From positions 1 through 34,269 of the forward strand of contig JANXRL010000153.1 in assembly GCA_025352985.1 (NCBI GenBank): a stretch of 34,269 nt of DNA, given 5' to 3'. Made by a program: the position numbers and the translations under genes. Below, in pieces: positions 2,172 through 20,593 of this stretch (position 1 is the first letter of the stretch; every line of letters begins with the position of its first letter). The notes under the pieces were generated by a model that did no database searches, was not told the DNA's origin, and worked only from the letters and a program-made list of their open reading frames with translations. This stretch comes from Verrucomicrobiota bacterium. Lineage in GTDB: Bacteria > Verrucomicrobiota > Verrucomicrobiia > Opitutales > Opitutaceae.

Positions 2172-3176
2172 TCACTTCTGTTTGGCCTCTTCCTCGGCGA
2201 GCTTCAGGTCGGACTCGGTCATGATCTTCACGAGTTCCTTGAAGCGGACCTTTGGCTCCCAGCCGAGCCGCATCTTGGCCTTGGCCGGATCGCCGATGAG
2301 GAGATCGACCTCGGCGGGGCGTTCGTAGCGGGCATCGTATTTGACATACTTTTCCCAATCGAGATCAAGCAGGCCGAAGGTTTCTTGGATAAACTCTTTC
2401 ACGCTGTGGGTCTCGTTGGTCGCGACCACGTAGTCGTCGGCTTGGTCCTGCTGAAGCATGAGCCACATCATCTCGACGTATTCCTTGGCGTAGCCCCAGT
2501 CGCGGCGGGCATCGAGGTTGCCCATGACGAGTTCCTTTTGCAGGCCCAGCTTGATGCGGGTGGCGGCGCGGGTGATCTTGCGGGTGACGAAGGTCTCGCC
2601 GCGGCGCGGGGACTCGTGGTTGAAGAGGATGCCATTGGAGGCGTGCATATCGTAGCCCTCACGGTAGTTCACCGTGAGCCAGTAGGCATACATCTTGGCG
2701 CAGCCATAGGGGGAGCGCGGCCAAAAAGGGGTTTTTTCCGTTTGCGGGACTTCCTGCACCTTCCCGAACATCTCGGAGGACGAGGCTTGGTAATAACGGA
2801 CTTTCTTGCCGAGGCCGGATTCGCGGATGGCCTCCAGCAGGCGCTGCGCGCCGAGGCCAACGATGTCGCCGGTGTATTCGGGCACGTCGAAGGACACACG
2901 GACGTGGGACTGGGCGCCGAGGTTATAGACCTCGTCGGGCTTGATCTCGTAGAGGAGCTTCACGAGCGAGACGGAGTCGGCGAGGTCACCGTAGTGAAGG
3001 TGAAGGCGGCCGGAGCCGCCGTGAGACGGCTCGGTAAGATGGTCGATGCGCGAGCGGACGACGGTGCTGGACCGCCGCACGATGCCATGGACTTCGTAGC
3101 CCTTCTCCAAAAGGAGTTCGGCGAGATAAGAACCATCTTGGCCGGTGATACCGGTGATGAAGGCGATTTTAGTCAT
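2172..3176 (-). CDS. gmd: GDP-mannose 4,6-dehydratase
   Basis: The 334-residue extended SDR converts GDP-D-mannose to GDP-4-keto-6-deoxy-D-mannose, the precursor of GDP-fucose, GDP-rhamnose and related sugars. It has the NADP-binding [12 protein letters not shown] loop at 9-20, the RRSS segment (34-37) that holds the NADP phosphate in this family, the ASSSEMFG active-site strand (Ser133, Glu135) and YGCAK (Tyr157, Lys161). [15 protein letters not shown] and the [16 protein letters not shown] region are family hallmarks, and length is normal. A second Gmd-like gene lies 44 bases upstream in the same direction. GDP-mannose can come from manC at 23513-24601. No fucose synthase (fcl) is seen in the window. 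Confidence 0.95.
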
Positions 3177-3220
3177 GGGTAGAAAATCTGGATTGAGAGT
3201 CAGGGAAAGAAATGAGGACC

Positions 3221-4198
3221 TCAGGTCTTCCGCAGTTCGCTTTCCACCAGCTTGGCAACCATCGCATCAAACGGCACGGTGTTTTCCCAGCCGAGGATGC
3301 GGCGGGCCTTGCCGGGGTTGCCGCAGGGGGAAACCGGTTCGACGGTCGTCACCAGGCCGGGGTCGAACTTCACGTGATCGCGCCAGTTGAGGTCCACGGC
3401 CTTGAAGGCGGCGGATACAAAATCCTCGACGGTGTGCAACACGCCGGTCGCGAGGATAAAGTCATCGACGGGGCTGTTTTGGAGTATCATCCACATGCCT
3501 TTCACGTAGTCGGGTGCCCAGCCCCAGTCGCGACGACCCGTAAGGCTGCCGAGCTGGAGTTCATGCTGGAGTCCTTTTTTGATGCGGGCGGCAGCGCGGG
3601 CGACCTTCATGGTCACAAACTGGCCGCTGCGGCGGGGCGACTCGTGGTTGTATAAAATCACGGAGCACGTCTGGAGTCCGTAAGCGGTGCGGTAGATGCG
3701 TGCCATCTGCTGGGAAAACGCCTTGGCCGCGCCATACGGCGTGGTGGGATTGAGGGGAGTAAGCTCGTCCTGCGGCGAATGCACGGGCGAGCCAAACACC
3801 TCGGCGCTGGAGGCGTAGAGAAACTTGGGCGGATTAGGCAGGTCGCGGATGATTTCAAGTAGGCGCAAAGTCGCCATGCCGATGCTGTCAACGGTAGTCT
3901 CGGGCAGTTCCAAGCTCAGGCGGGGACTCGACTGGCCGGCGAGGTGATAAAACTCGGTGGGCTGCGCGCGGCTGATGATACGGCGGAGGTGGGTGGCGTC
4001 CTCGAACGCGCCGTTGTGCAGAAAGAGGCGCTTGTTCAGCAGGGCGGCGTCGGAGACGAGATGCCCGATGTTGCTGGAGGCGAGGCCATCGGGGCGATGC
4101 ACGAGGCCGTGCACGGCGTAGCCTTTTTCCAGCAACAGCTCGGCAAGATAGGATCCGTCCTGACCGGTTATTCCAGTGATGAAGGCGATGTTGGGCAT
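3221..4198 (-). CDS. divergent GDP-mannose 4,6-dehydratase paralogue
   Basis: This 325-residue SDR shares the start [15 protein letters not shown], the NHESPRR segment and the [15 protein letters not shown] segment with the Gmd encoded just downstream. Ser131, Glu133 (ASSAEVFG) and Tyr155/Lys159 (YGAAK) are kept, so the dehydratase chemistry could be intact. It differs where Gmd binds the NADP phosphate: HGLVHRPDG instead of HGIVRRSST. The region after LKW-type strand four and the C-terminus ([18 protein letters not shown]) are also diverged. It may act on the same GDP-sugar as a 4-reductase (Rmd-like), use another nucleotide sugar, or form a hetero-oligomer with Gmd. The tandem order suggests duplication followed by divergence. 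Confidence 0.85.
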
Positions 4199-5341: not shown

Positions 5342-6229
5342 TCAGTTGCTGGAAACGAGAATGCCACTGAGGTAAACGCCGTAGGCGGACTTACCCATAC
5401 GTTTGATGACCGACTCCAGCCCGGCACGATCAAGCCAGCCAGCGCGAAAGGCGATCTCCTCCAGGCAGGCGATCTTAAGTCCCTGGCGGCGCTCGATGAC
5501 CTGCACAAACTGCCCGGCATCGAGCAGCGAGTCGTGGGTGCCCGTGTCCAGCCAAGCGGTGCCACGACCAAGCAACTCCACGCGCAGCAGGCCCTTTTCC
5601 AGATAGAGTCGGTTAAGATCGGTGATCTCCAGTTCGCCGCGCGTGCTGGGCTTCAGGCTGCGGGCGAGCGCCACGACGGCGTTGTCATAAAAATACAGGC
5701 CAGGCACGGCGTAGTTGGACTTGGGGCGGGCGGGTTTTTCCTCCATAGAAACCACCCGGCCGTCGTCGGCAAACTCCACCACGCCGTAAGCGGAGGGCTC
5801 GGCGACGTGGTAGCCGAAAATCGTGGCACCCTCCCCTTGCCCACCGGCCATCGCGAGCGATTTCACAAAATCGTGGCCGTAGAAAAGATTGTCGCCGAGC
5901 ACGAGCGCGGAGGATTCGCCGTCTTTCAAAAAACCGCAGTCCGCCGCGATGAGAAAAGCCTGTGCGAGTCCGTCGGGACTGGGCTGTTCGGCGTAACTGA
6001 GCACAAGACCGAACTGCGATCCGTCGCCCAGAAGCCGTCGAAACAGCGGCAAATCGGTCGGCGTAGAAATGACAAGAACCTCGCGGATGCCCGCCAGCAT
6101 GAGGACAGACAGCGGATAATAGATCATCGGTTTGTCGTAAACCGGCATGAGCTGCTTCGAGACCGCGATGGTCAGCGGGAACAGCCGGCTGCCGGAGCCA
6201 CCGGCGAGAATGATACCTTTTCGATGCAT
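5342..6229 (-). CDS. rfbA: glucose-1-phosphate thymidylyltransferase
   Basis: RmlA makes dTDP-glucose from dTTP and glucose 1-phosphate, the first step to dTDP-rhamnose. The 295-residue product has the signature [43 protein letters not shown] and the [12 protein letters not shown] segment with the following [13 protein letters not shown], all standard. Length matches the family. The open frame extends 13 codons upstream, but that part (FFASFAVNK) is made from a repeat at 6240-6260, so the Met before [10 protein letters not shown] was chosen as the start. No clear ribosome-binding site is visible. The partner rfbB is upstream, separated by the nuclease-gene insert. Confidence 0.95.
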
Positions 6230-6239
6230 ACAGATTTTA

Positions 6240-6780
6240 TTGACCGCGAAGGACGCGAAGAAACACAAAGATCAAGACTCGGAGAGGATGATGCGTCCCC
6301 ATTCCAACCGCCCGAAAGAACCAAAGTTTACCAGAAGACCAAGATTAAGTCCCATGACTTTAAGATAGTTCAACACTTGAGCACGGTGCTCGCCGGTAAT
6401 GGCTTAAGCCGCTTTTAACTCCACGATGATTTTACCGTAACAAAGCAAGTCTGGCGTGTAGCTATGCTTTAGTGGCACGCCTCGGTAATGGATCGGGAAA
6501 TTATGCTGTGAATCAAACGGAATGCCGAGGTGAACGAGTTCGATTTCCATGCAATCCTGATAGACCGGCTCGACGTAGCCGTTTCCCTTGTCGGAGTGGA
6601 CCGACATACATGAGCCAATGATACGGAATACTTCCTCCTTATAAATGATGGACTCGCTCATGGAGCGAATTGAGTTAACCGATAAAAACACGAAGGAGCG
6701 CGAAGTCTGAAAATGAATCGAAGGCTAGGCATTGGATTGTGGGCCGAAGCTTCGCGCAAGTTCGCGTTCTTCGCGGTTAA
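6240..6780. mobile_element. candidate GxxExxY nuclease insert bounded by inverted repeats
   Basis: The 541-base segment fits exactly between the rfbB stop codon and the rfbA start. Its two ends are near-matching inverted repeats: ACCGCGAAGGACGCGAA within 6240-6260, and its inverse within 6761-6780 (18 of 21 positions agree over the full end). A related partial copy, CACGAAGGAGCGCGAAG, sits at 6689-6705. The only gene inside is a GxxExxY-family nuclease, now broken by a stop codon. No target-site duplication is evident, so mobility is an inference. Confidence 0.45.
6272..6661 (-). pseudogene. GxxExxY-family PD-(D/E)XK nuclease with internal stop codon
   Basis: The family is about 125-135 residues. 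Here the frame starts MSESIIYKEEVFRIIGSC, carries the name motif in GNGYVEPVYQDCME, then the nuclease core YTPDLLCYGKIIVELKA (PD...ELK). A TAA (6404-6406) stops it two codons after ELK. Past this codon the same frame goes on with AITGEHRAQVLNYL and GLNLGLLVNFGSFGRLEW, the normal family C-terminus, to a TGA at 6272-6274. A single base change therefore splits an otherwise complete gene. The upstream Met 10 codons earlier is less likely, since family members begin close to the IIYKE segment. The N-terminal piece might still be made, but would lack the final strand and helix. Confidence 0.85.
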
Positions 6781-7829
6781 ACCATTCCGATACGCTGCAG
6801 CTTGTAATCTCCGCTCAGGATATTCGCGGTCCACGCCTCGTTTTCGAGATACCAGGCGACGGTATGCCGGAAGCCGGACGCATGGTCCTGCTTCGGCGTC
6901 CAGCCGAGTTCGCGGCGAATTTTCGTTGCGTCGATCGCGTAGCGCAGATCGTGGCCGGGGCGGTCGGTGACAAAGGTGATGTGGTCGGCGTAGGACCTGT
7001 CGTCGGCACGCGGACGAAATTCGTCGAGCAGGCCGCAAAGCAAGCGCACGAGATCGATGTTTTTGCGCTCGTTGTTCCCGCCGATGTTGTAGGTTTCGCC
7101 GGGACGGCCACCGGCGATCACGGCATGCAACGCCTCCGCATGATCACCGACGTAGAGCCAGTCACGGATGTTTTCGCCCGCGCCGTAAACGGGGATGACT
7201 TCACCGCGCAGGGCCTTGAGGATGACCACGGGGATGAGCTTCTCGGGAAACTGGAACGGGCCGTAATTGTTGGAGCAGTTGGTGACGAGAACCGGCAGCT
7301 TGTAGGTGTCGGCCCAGGCGCGGGCGAGATGGTCGCTGGCGGCCTTGCTCGCGGAATACGGGGAGTGCGGATCGTAAGGCGTCTCCTCGGTGAACACACC
7401 GGTCGCACCGAGGCTGCCATAAACCTCGTCGGTGGAAACGTGCAGGAAGCGGAAACAGTCGCGCGCCGCGCCGGTGAGCGTCTCGTAGTGGGCGCGGGCG
7501 GCCTGCAACAAGGTGAAGGTGCCTACGATGTTGGTCTGGATGAACGCGCCCGGACCTTCGATGGAACGGTCCACATGGCTCTCAGCGGCGAGGTGCATGA
7601 CCCAGTCGGGCTGGAACTCGGCGAAGAGGCGGCGCATCGCGGCGGCATCGGTGATGTTGGCGCGGGCGAAGCGGTAACGGGGATGCGCGGCGACGTCGTC
7701 CAGCGAGCGGAGGTTCCCCGCGTAGGTGAGCGCATCGACGTTCAACACGGAGTGGTCCGTTACCGTGAGCAGGTGGCGGACAAGATTGGAGCCGATGAAC
7801 CCGGCGCCGCCAGTGATGAAAATTTTCAC
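6777..7829 (-). CDS. rfbB: dTDP-glucose 4,6-dehydratase
   Basis: RmlB dehydrates dTDP-glucose to dTDP-4-keto-6-deoxyglucose. The 350-residue protein has [16 protein letters not shown], the LTYAGNL segment, [10 protein letters not shown], the catalytic strand STDEVYG (Thr133, Asp134, Glu135) and YSASK (Tyr158, Lys162), and then [17 protein letters not shown]. All key residues are present and length is normal. It overlaps the upstream epimerase/reductase gene by 4 bases (ATGA), so the two are translated together and act in sequence. The stop codon lies inside the inverted repeat that bounds the GxxExxY insert, so the insert landed at or recombined with the gene end. Confidence 0.96.
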
Positions 7830-17566: not shown

Positions 17567-19111
17567 ATGTCCCTCCTCCCCTTTTCCAGCCAGCTCATCG
17601 CCGATGTCGGCATCTCCCTCGGTGATGAAGGCAAAGGCCGCCTGATCCCCGAAGTCGTTCACGAGCTGCGCGGCACCGCCTCCCCCGTCACGACCGTTCT
17701 CAAGGTCAACGGCGGCGCCAACTCCGGCCACACCGCCGCCGGCATCAAACTCAACCTCCTCCCCTCCGGCGTGGTAGAAAAGGAACTCGCCCACCTCGCC
17801 ATCGGCGCCGGTGTCGTCGCCGACCCGCGCAAGGTCTGGTGGGAAGCCCAGCCCCTGGAGAAAAAAGGCTACAACGTCCTCGCACGCCTCCTCATCGACG
17901 AGCGCACGATGGTCTCCGATTTCACCCACCGCCTGCTCGACCTCGCCTGGGAAGACTACCGCGAAAAAGTCCTCGCCGAGGAGCCCCGCGGCTCCACCGG
18001 CCGCGGCATCACCCCCGCCTACGCCGACGAGGTTGGCCAGTGGCAGATCACCTACGCCGACTTCCTCGGCGGCCCGAATTTCTTCGCGCGCAAACTCGCC
18101 CAGCGCGCCGACCGCGCCCTCCGCACCATCCAGCACGTCTGCCGTGTTTCCCCTGAAACGTTTTCCGGCTTCTTCGACAAACTCTCCGCCGCCGAACTCC
18201 GCGCCAACACCGAAGCCATCGAACTCGGCGTGTTCACCAAGGACGAATTCGATTTCACTCCCTTCCGCGGCACCGAGCCCTTCGCGCTCAACCTCGAAAA
18301 ACTCACCGCGACCTACTGGCAGGCCGGCCAGCGCCTCGCCAAAAACATCGGCGAAGTCCGCGAACTCATCCTCCGCGAAGTCCTCGCCGGCCACACCATC
18401 ATCGGTGAATTCGGCCAGGCCTACTGGCTCGACAAACGCCACGGCTACTCGCCCAACGTCACCGCCTCGCACACCTTCACGCCCGAGTTCTTCGAGAGCG
18501 CCGGCATCCCCGTGCAGGCCATCCACACCTTCGGCGTCGCCAAAGCCTACGACACCAAGGTCGGCACCCACGTCTTCCTCACGCAGATGGACGACTCCCA
18601 CCCGCTCTCCGTGCTCCTCAAGCGCCTCGAATTCGGCACCAGCACCGGCCGCCAGCGCATGGTCGGCTGGTATGACGCCGTGGAAAAAGGCGACGCCCTC
18701 CGCTACGGCGGCTTCCAAGACGTGATGATCAACAAGCTCGACGCCCTCACCCACCGCGGCGAGTGGAACTCCGACCTCCTCATCGCCACCGCCTACGAAG
18801 ACGCCTCAGGCAAACGCTACCACCACGTCCCCCGCAACGACGCCATCCGCAAACAGCTTCGCCCCGTTTACACGAAGCACCCCGGCTGGACCGAGGACGT
18901 TTCGCAAGTGCGCACCTTCGACGCTCTCCCAAAGAATGCCCAACGCTACGTCGCCGCGATGGTGAAATCCCTCCTCGACGTCGCCTACCACGGCGAGCCA
19001 TTGCCAGTCCCCGAAAAGCTCCCCAACCTCCGCTACCTCGGAGTCGGCCCCGACCCATCCCAGATCATCAAAGACGTCCCCGCGACATCCGACCTGATCA
19101 AGCTGGTCTGA
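17567..19111 (+). CDS. purA: divergent adenylosuccinate synthetase
   Basis: PurA joins IMP and aspartate with GTP to give adenylosuccinate. The 514-residue product keeps the GTP loop as GDEGKGRL (catalytic Asp20), the His loop as GGANSGHT (His55), [16 protein letters not shown], the [10 protein letters not shown] strand, and [15 protein letters not shown] near the base-binding site. It is some 80 residues longer than the typical 430 and lacks the usual GTYPFVTSS and GPFPTE segments, which read [10 protein letters not shown] and GTHVFLTQ. The catalytic Asp is present, unlike the diaminopurine enzyme PurZ, so the normal reaction is expected. Neighbouring guaB is also divergent. A weak alternative is a paralogue with another substrate. 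Confidence 0.83.
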
Positions 19112-19200
19112 GGTTTAATCTGGAAAGCGGGAACGATCTCCGGGTGCGGAGTTTCGGGGAATACCGATTCCTGATTTCCAGCTTTCCAGATTAAAAACCT
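19111..19200. terminator. hairpin between convergent purA and folC
   Basis: Arms at 19115-19128 (TTAATCTGGAAAGC) and 19181-19194 pair perfectly over 14 bases, with AGGT/ACCT extending the stem after a 2-base slip. The long loop also carries ATTCCTGATTTCC. It sits between convergent genes and may end both messages. The same AATCTGGAAAG and TTCCTGATTTCC elements recur at 22979-23050, so it is also a member of a repeat family. Confidence 0.6.
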
Positions 19201-19202
19201 GA

Positions 19203-20495
19203 TCAGAAATCCTGTAACCGGCTCTCGATCGCTCCTCGGCCCGGCTCGATCCGCGCCATCACCTCGCCCAGCAGATAGATCGAACCGGTGATTACCACCG
19301 TGTCCGCCGCTCCGCCCACCGCGCAGGTCTGCGCATCGGGAAACACCTCTGCCACAGTCGCGCGTTTCACCACGCCGCCGAAACTAGGTGGCACCAACGC
19401 CTCCAACTCCTCAAACGACGACGCCCGTGACTGCTGCGGCATCACGAGATGAATTTCCGACGCATATCGGCTGATCGTCTCCAACAACGGCCTGGCCCGC
19501 GCCGCGCCCAGCACGCCCGTCACGACGACCGGCTTGCGCCCCGTCTCCGCCACCAGCGCCCGCAACTGCTGCGCCAGCACGCCCGCACCCTCGGGATTGT
19601 GCGACGCATCCAGAATAAGCGCACGCCCCCCAATCATCGTCCGCTGCCAGCGACCCGGCCAGCGCGCCGCGTGCAACCCGCGCGCCACAACCTCAGGCGT
19701 CAGTTTCCACCTCTCGCCCATGCAACGCGCCACCAGCACCGCCGTCGCCGCATTCCAGCGTTGATAATCCCCCTCGAACGCCGTCGTCGGATACCCCGCC
19801 AACTCTTCGCCAAAAATCTCGCGCACCGAATGCACCGCCGCCCCGCGCTCCGCCGCCACCCGCCGTATGACCGCCTCGGCCCCGGCCGGCACGCGCCCCA
19901 TCACCACCGGCCGTCCGTCCTTGAGGATGCCCGCCTTCTCCGCCGCGATCTCCGCGATCGTGTTGCCCAGCATCTCGCAATGATCGAGTCCGATGGACGT
20001 GATCACTGCGACCTCCGGCATGACGACATTTGTCGCGTCGAGCCGCCCTCCCAACCCCGTTTCGATGAACGCGATGTCACAGCCTTTCCTCGCAAACTGC
20101 AAAAACGCCATCGCCGTCATAAACTCAAAAAAACTCGGGTGATCATCCGCGCAGCCAAGCCCGATTTTCTCCGCCTCCGGCCCGAGTTCCTTCGTATAGG
20201 CGACGATCTCCGCCTCCGTTAAAATCTCCCGCCCCACCTGCACGCGCTCGCCCAGTTTCACGAGATGCGGTGAAGTGTAGAGACCCGTGCGCCACCCCGC
20301 CGCCGAAAAAATCGCCTCCAACATCGCTGCGACGGACCCCTTGCCATTGGTCCCCGCGAGATGGATCACAGGCAATGCCCGCTCCGGATGCCCCAGCGCC
20401 GCGACCAGCAGCCGCATCCGATCAATGCCAAACTTCACCCCCTTCGCCTTCAGCGAAAAGAGAGTCTCCTGAGTCGTGGCGTAGTCGGAAGGCAT
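19203..20495 (-). CDS. folC: dihydrofolate/folylpolyglutamate synthase
   Basis: FolC adds glutamate to dihydropteroate and folates. The 430-residue Mur-ligase-type protein starts MPSDYATTQETLFSLK, has the ATP loop LAGTNGKGSVAAMLEAIF, YTSPHLVKLGERVQVG, the ETGLGGRLDATNVV segment, DHCEMLGNTIAEIAAEKAGI and ILDASHNPEGAGVL with the family His. All family marks and normal length are present. It is read in the same direction as accD upstream, separated by a REP-like inverted pair. In many bacteria folC follows accD, and this order holds here. It converges on purA. Confidence 0.95.
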   Translation of the reverse strand: MPSDYATTQETLFSLKAKGVKFGIDRMRLLVAALGHPERALPVIHLAGTNGKGSVAAMLEAIFSAAGWRTGLYTSPHLVKLGERVQVGREILTEAEIVAYTKELGPEAEKIGLGCADDHPSFFEFMTAMAFLQFARKGCDIAFIETGLGGRLDATNVVMPEVAVITSIGLDHCEMLGNTIAEIAAEKAGILKDGRPVVMGRVPAGAEAVIRRVAAERGAAVHSVREIFGEELAGYPTTAFEGDYQRWNAATAVLVARCMGERWKLTPEVVARGLHAARWPGRWQRTMIGGRALILDASHNPEGAGVLAQQLRALVAETGRKPVVVTGVLGAARARPLLETISRYASEIHLVMPQQSRASSFEELEALVPPSFGGVVKRATVAEVFPDAQTCAVGGAADTVVITGSIYLLGEVMARIEPGRGAIESRLQDF

Positions 20496-20505
20496 TGGAT
20501 CGGAA

Positions 20506-20530
20506 TGTAGGAGCCCGTTTACGGGCGATG
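20506..20530 (+). repeat. REP-like repeat, copy 1
   Basis: The 25-base unit begins TGTAGGAGCC, folds around CCCGTTTACGGG and ends GGGCGATG. It forms an inverted pair with the unit at 20569-20593 (23 of 25 identical), the arrangement of BIME-type elements. It lies 10 bases before the folC start codon. Confidence 0.85.
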
Positions 20531-20568
20531 AACGGCGTAAGACAACTTCAGGGAATTCGATTATCCAA

Positions 20569-20593
20569 CATCGCCCATAAATGGGCTCCTACA
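20569..20593 (-). repeat. REP-like repeat, copy 2 (inverted)
   Basis: On the minus strand this reads TGTAGGAGCC, stem CCCATTTATGGG, then GGGCGATG. Compared with copy 1 the stem has changed a G-C pair to A-T on both sides, a compensatory change that shows the hairpin is what is kept. It lies 12 bases after the accD stop. Confidence 0.85.

Follow-up and report, generated by a model that had tools for sequence, protein, structure and literature searches.

In the RAYT/REP systems a gene for a small DNA-cutting enzyme occurs with two cognate inverted repeats, with which it coevolves, and with many non-autonomous copies (PMC2817692). The intervening sequences of 23S rRNA genes that carry S23p are short elements with complementary ends and one small open reading frame, which lie in rRNA genes and are removed by RNase III; in the Coxiella element the ends form a 28-bp terminal inverted repeat stem, three tandem GACAGAT heptamers stand ahead of the S23p start codon, and the function and origin of such sequences are still called unclear (PMC4990558). 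Insertion sequences and MITEs comprise autonomous and gene-less copies whose terminal inverted repeats bound the moved unit, and a homing endonuclease gene cleaves an allele that lacks it, the repair of which copies the gene in. The TAACTGA heptamers of Beggiatoaceae, mostly direct repeats before start codons, are a loose parallel only (PMC4679880). In the open literature searched we found no description of the ends or the role of the GxxExxY family (TIGR04256, PF13366), and no printed precedent for six of its end-word sequences. To our knowledge, ends that change jointly while their sequence is free are unusual among transposons.

Here we describe a GxxExxY gene in a window (the whole stretch analysed) of 34,269 nucleotides from a member of the Opitutaceae. 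Our preferred reading, held with moderate confidence, is that this copy is a decayed mobile cassette of about 0.5 kb, acting at the DNA level, in which a nuclease gene lies between inverted arms built of tandem words. The family resembles insertion sequences and MITEs in its bounded unit and gene-less copies, but it has no recognisable transposase, no family-wide terminal sequence and no target duplication that we could find. It differs from the rRNA intervening sequences in the site of the window copy, between rfbB and rfbA, in its protein family, and in having intergenic gaps, words of 9-10 nt and no sign of selection for an RNA stem; vacant alleles, of the kind a homing endonuclease gene would cut, are present. 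The cassettes look like a little-studied kind of mobile element whose ends vary between copies and are matched within each. A family named only by its motif is now tied to defined ends, movement and gene-less relatives, and one anatomy is common to GxxExxY and S23p genes, the latter including the rRNA intervening sequences; how a protein finds its own ends becomes testable in a half-kilobase element.

The rfb locus and its broken nuclease gene

The features of the window that concern us are as follows.
5342-6229, minus strand: rfbA, glucose-1-phosphate thymidylyltransferase, downstream neighbour (TIGR01207, E 7.2e-141)
6240-6270, plus strand: outer arm on the rfbA side, words CGCGAAG, CGCGAAG, CACAAAG
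6272-6661, minus strand: GxxExxY PD-(D/E)XK nuclease gene, broken by a TAA, with matches to TIGR04256 and PF13366
6675-6705, plus strand: third, partial arm just upstream of the nuclease gene, inverted relative to 6750-6781 (SW 18)
6750-6781, minus strand: outer arm on the rfbB side, words CGCGAAG, CGCGAA, CGCGAAG, with 6761-6780 inverted relative to 6240-6259
6777-7829, minus strand: rfbB, dTDP-glucose 4,6-dehydratase, upstream neighbour (TIGR01181, E 2e-141)
19103-19206, no strand assigned: gene-less hairpin with CTGGAA-type words, resembling the ends of another cassette (L004) of the same genome
22979-23062, no strand assigned: gene-less hairpin with CTGGAA/TCAGGAA words, also resembling the ends of L004

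The initial annotation had placed a GxxExxY nuclease gene between rfbB and rfbA, and both the profile matches and the coordinates bear this out. The gene fills the gap on the minus strand, from its ATG at 6661 to its terminal stop at 6272-6274, and rfbA follows (ATG at 6229, end at 5342). Its 95-residue open part scores above the cut-offs of TIGR04256 (E 4.9e-23, 81.7 bits against 35) and PF13366 (E 8.3e-22, 78.2 bits against 22), the only two profiles matched by the protein. A feature absent from that annotation is an in-frame TAA at 6404-6406, directly after the E-x-K motif, so that the window copy lacks the intact frame of its family and its product should be inactive. It is the sole copy with an in-frame stop among the 133 GxxExxY copies fetched, outside which stand five further listed copies with such a stop. 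The GxxExxY nuclease retains E, D and E-x-K, and its structure model is confident (pLDDT 96.2). A fold search returned no match at E <= 0.001; the best was 4ic1 (4e-3), and the best matches were nucleases of the PD-(D/E)XK kind. The search for solved relatives gave three matches (E 0.19-0.46), two of which were T7 endonuclease I. The host genome (G000; 2.88 Mb in 199 contigs) holds four GxxExxY gene copies. Elsewhere in the window, 1390-1821 on the minus strand encodes a VapC-like PIN protein (TIGR00028, E 4.8e-16, under its cut-off), and two adjacent genes at 2172-4198 both have GDP-mannose 4,6-dehydratase as best match, only the first over the cut-off.

The near-identical inverted repeats reported at the two edges are present: 6240-6259 and 6761-6780, each of 20 nt and 501 nt apart, are complementary at 18 of 20 positions (90%), and the rfbB stop codon (6777-6779) falls within the rfbB-side arm. 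The third partial copy, previously given as 6689-6705, was also recovered, as an arm at 6675-6705 that can pair with 6750-6781 as a hairpin. The window holds four inverted pairs of at least 18/20 whose members lie within 640 nt of each other, compared with one in a reversed but not complemented control; of the other three pairs, two form hairpins of this kind built on a different word. Taken from this window alone the argument against chance for the inverted pair is modest, and it is the family-wide arm test below, not the window counts, that places the arms far beyond chance. In its own genome the window's word has no copy with at most one mismatch beyond the two outer arms, and one copy with two. 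A further hairpin at 20506-20593, with TGTAGGAGCCCGTTTACGGGCGATG arms, is not of the tandem-word kind.

Arm design and private words in two protein families

For the 133 GxxExxY genes, drawn from the window's family and order with weaker and partial matches left out, the arm score was the local score of the upstream flank against the reverse complement of the downstream flank. Three controls were used, i.e. mismatched pairs from the same genome (418) or from other genomes (3901), and shifted windows (770). The median was 23, compared with 9.5 in the controls, and 109 genes lay above the 95th percentile of the shifted windows (14.5) and 84 above the 99th (19.96), while the remaining 24 scored 14.5 or less i.e. 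were without clear arms. Chance as the origin of the family's arms is ruled out by these controls; the window copy itself, with a score of 16, lies between the two percentiles. In the phylum, where 171 of 288 genomes contain the family, 19 of 28 loci exceeded 14.5 (shifted 95th percentile 12.5). A named sample took the 80 best loci across many bacterial phyla and some archaea; of the 79 usable ones, 55 exceeded 14.5 and 41 exceeded 19.96 (shifted 95th percentile 14), with 24 not above 14.5.

Each arm consists of about three tandem words, e.g. CACGGAG, CACAGAG, CACGAAA, CACTAAT, CGCGGAT or TCAGGAA, and an element usually has one word in both of its arms, with another word in the next element of that genome. 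Of the 97 elements scored in the family and order, 80 have a best word period of 9 or 10 nt; in the phylum it is 9 nt for 10 of 15. The genes are often multi-copy (up to 10 per genome among 56 relatives), and a single fixed terminal repeat is ruled out because the words vary between elements. Aligning the flanks of other copies, proposed earlier as a way of finding a shared inverted end, yielded none: these copies carry other words, each matching mainly itself.

Genes for S23p, a four-helix-bundle protein (TIGR02436), have the same arm design in the same genomes, with 24 of 30 above 14.5 and 17 above 19.96 (shifted windows: 95th percentile 13.5, 99th 15.4). In the window's family and order, where it was measured, 19 of their 22 scored elements have a word period of 7 nt, with a match of.63 at lag 7 compared with.30 in shuffles. 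The heptamers and inverted stem of the Coxiella intervening sequence, as published, would fit this 7-nt class. Cassettes of the two families occupy the same gaps, rfbB-rfbA and icd-alaS, in different relatives. Two S23p genes (L194, L195) have words of about 8-9 nt that resemble GxxExxY cassette words, and ends may have been exchanged between the classes. Gene-less hairpins with 6-nt words (GAACGA type) occur in G002 (C1:438770, 587057, 638701 and 671430) and G015 (C1:2399492 and 2573002) and are possibly a third class, for which no cargo gene was found.

S23p cassettes have the same arms and no nuclease, as would be expected if the nuclease were a passenger and the word arms the real unit, moved by host replication or repair (template switching, foldback) or by an enzyme acting in trans, with S23p and GxxExxY as its cargo. 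The hairpins with a period of 6 and no cargo point the same way, as does the greater number of gene-less hairpins than of cassettes. However, the word period follows the encoded protein (7 as opposed to 9-10 nt), and measured against fourfold sites the protein shows strong conservation (the L013 and L017 proteins are 95% identical at a fourfold divergence of.41). We regard this account as unlikely, though as one that deserves weight.

Concerted change of the two arms

Fifteen sites at which both flanks are homologous hold 64 of the 133 elements, and for 51 of these 64 the nearest protein neighbour is at the same site, so inheritance is mostly vertical. Of the 60 cassettes called by homology, 58 point the same way as the genes on both sides, and a codon model gave the same orientation for 88 of 102 nuclease genes and 25 of 27 S23p genes that could be called. 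In most of 33 loci the gene reaches almost from the inner edge of one arm to that of the other, and its expression therefore probably depends on read-through; selection for read-through is the best account of the co-direction, as with the arms in place there is no space for a promoter. Sequence comparison shows that the cassettes sit in operon gaps, oriented like the genes beside them, and that their inheritance is mostly vertical.

Although the sites are shared, the arms resemble each other more than they resemble their orthologs. Across 112 ortholog pairs, arm identity was.85 within an element compared with.58 for the ortholog on the same side and.57 on the opposite side, and the within-element value was the higher in 107. 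In 99 pairs with ungapped arms, 435 columns differed in both arms, compared with 168.4 expected under independence, and 310 of the 435 had changed identically in both. Both sets of pairs take only elements with recognised arms; without arm selection, the median score was 24.4 within an element, 15.9 for the ortholog opposite side and 27.8 for the same side (a value that includes conserved gene ends), and the within-element score exceeded that of the opposite side in 133 of 158 pairs. At one site, which from the downstream sequence we take to be hemL, several genomes have the word CACTAAT or a near form, and CGCTAAT stands in both arms of L091 and L099. As reconstructed from such alignments, the words in both arms are shown to change together at orthologous sites. 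Slippage and template switching, in keeping with the nuclease as passenger, would homogenise the words too.

Matched arms would also be expected if they paired in the operon transcript and RNase III removed the insert, which would explain why it is tolerated, and if the arms were kept as an RNA stem. The anatomy that S23p cassettes share with rRNA intervening sequences, which are excised by RNase III (PMC4990558), agrees with this, and so does the co-direction with the operon. Selection for an RNA stem is nevertheless unsupported by the strand test, which found no G.U enrichment among sense-strand arm mismatches in any of four sets (G.U/A.C 92/145 in the GxxExxY genes of the family and order, 19/34 for S23p, 17/25 in the phylum and 57/50 in the named sample); without this bias the arms behave as DNA. 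A stem in RNA has no need of the direct repeats that make up each arm, and dispersed hairpins with the same ends require a step at the DNA level. We therefore consider an RNA-level element improbable.

Boundaries, vacant sites and dispersed hairpins

We compared 45 pairs of elements with similar proteins and no homologous flanking protein, in which 53 of the 90 arms were alignable. Identity was.65-.80 inside the arm,.40 over the first five bases outside and.25-.34 beyond; by the same ungapped measure, same-site pairs ran from.65 to the.90 range inside and.31-.45 outside. In G042, two copies that are 94% alike have the same arms and unrelated flanks. This pattern of homology shows the arms to be, as far as alignment can place them, the edges of a unit common to unrelated sites. 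Arm similarity at unrelated sites climbs with protein identity, from 6.0 (<35%, 1443 pairs) to 16.0 (>=75%, 7 pairs), and these comparisons show a word that is private to an element lineage and tends to travel with the protein between sites. This too is contrary to what a passenger nuclease would predict.

The gap in which the window copy lies also exists without it. We examined 30 rfbA loci, 23 of which have rfbB upstream. The nuclease occupies one of these 23 gaps (that of the window), a hairpin only is found in two (G016, G021), S23p genes or remnants are found in four, and two are longer gaps with other sequence; the other 14 are short (14-130 nt) and without a cassette, including those of the congeners G006 (31 nt) and G004 (30 nt). 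The search for a vacant site in the same gap of relatives, put forward with the initial annotation, was therefore successful. In G021 a full cassette (L025) with CGCGAAG words, whose protein is 68.6% identical to that of the window, lies one gene upstream of a CGCGAAG hairpin. In G008, which has no rfbB upstream of rfbA, the arms enclose a 32-residue remnant that joins both ends of the nuclease, so gene-less forms could plausibly arise by internal deletion. For the icd-alaS gap no vacant allele was found in the seven genomes G000, G002, G003, G007, G009, G012 and G013: icd and alaS are on different contigs in G000, G007, G009, G012 and G013 and far apart in G002, and the gap of G003 contains an S23p gene with a stop.

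Gene-less copies are abundant in one lineage, which is not that of the window's word. A 27-nt end of cassette lineage L068/L070/L092 occurs 189 times (at most 3 mismatches) in 13 genomes of the genus, compared with 0 in controls, with between 0 (G003) and 52 (G001) copies per genome. Of 30 such loci fetched, 20 were hairpins under a lenient partner rule (at most 7 mismatches) and 10 were unpaired; one of the 20 is L068 itself, a nuclease cassette, and two are the opposite arms of a single hairpin. Outside the dispersed ends identity is down to about.3 no more than five bases away, over 760 flank pairs. Matching of the ends thus shows gene-less hairpins that carry the ends of a cassette lineage, with a lineage-specific copy number. 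In 400 kb of G002 there were 96 inverted pairs, compared with 2 in the reversed control (periodic pairs 30 and 0), a count that includes word hairpins and other palindromic repeats, and a wider search of 400 kb of G015 found no excess of inverted pairs (100 compared with 91 in the control; periodic 11 and 14). Repeats without a nuclease gene had been named, together with a lack of empty-site alleles, as evidence against a mobile unit; such repeats are common, but they resemble non-autonomous derivatives, and vacant alleles exist.

The recurrence of the cassette at the same site across genera, where 51 of 64 elements have their closest protein neighbour, and the conservation of the protein and its catalytic residues are compatible with an immobile host gene (e.g. 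for defence or repair) autoregulated by the repeats on both sides. The patchy presence of the gene, the bounding of cross-site copies by the arms, the alleles without a cassette and the dispersed gene-less copies all argue against this, and we judge it very improbable. The suggestion of a small mobile unit made in the initial annotation thus stands as regards arm-bounded homology, vacant alleles and dispersed hairpins, but there is no end signature common to the family and the window copy is damaged. The vertical descent seen at many sites means that movement is rare. The 25 copies examined from five multi-copy genomes included no near-identical set (best within-genome pair 85%), phages gave no GxxExxY match, and plasmids gave 7 records. 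Target duplication was not detected in 96 elements (mean direct repeat 3.31 compared with 3.15), for which the exact outer edge is uncertain.

By analogy, the mobile cassette that we favour would work like RAYT/REP (REPtron, BIME, REPIN), which is its nearest parallel in logic, but is not a member. Both have a gene between two inverted cognate repeats (here in the 109 of 133 genes above the 95th percentile) and dispersed gene-less repeats (here those of L068/L070/L092). However, the RAYT enzyme is a tyrosine HUH transposase and the protein here is of the PD-(D/E)XK kind, REP is tagged whereas the tandem words here differ between elements of one genome, and gene-bearing cassettes are mostly stable at orthologous sites. 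We propose that the nuclease makes a cut or a nick at the arms of its own element, which would lead to rare movement of the cassette and its hairpin derivatives, and that repair templated between words or between arms would keep the words matched. We favour recognition of ends that are folded, as a hairpin or cruciform, or that are repeat-spaced, over recognition of one fixed sequence, because the sequence of the ends is free while their symmetry and period are kept. The 24 of 133 genes without clear arms, the 24 of 79 in the named sample, the lack of target duplication, the nuclease-free S23p cassettes, the lack of excess in G015, the absence of within-genome pairs closer than 85% among the 25 copies, the rarity of movement and the abundant hairpin family described below, which travels in a larger repeat, all count against this explanation. 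A broader version, which we put forward tentatively and think rather less probable, is that the cassettes of many phyla and some archaea form a new mobile class in which the protein sets the symmetry and period of ends of free sequence, recognises them when folded or repeat-spaced and triggers repair that rewrites all of the words, with the 23S intervening sequences as the S23p branch.

Other inverted repeats were seen in the same genomes. An abundant TTTAGCCGCGAAAGAACGCA hairpin family, with 221 matches in G002 (L334-L353), 53 in G007, 23 in G012 and 0-5 in ten congeners, lies within a larger repeat that has outer flanks of its own, and an apparent vacant hairpin allele between G002 and G012 was discounted because this larger repeat is involved. 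One arm of cassette L150 is similar to this hairpin family. At L349:9159-9285, an insertion in G002 that is missing from G012 has inverted ends ACCAAC/GTTGGT and is unrelated to the cassettes.
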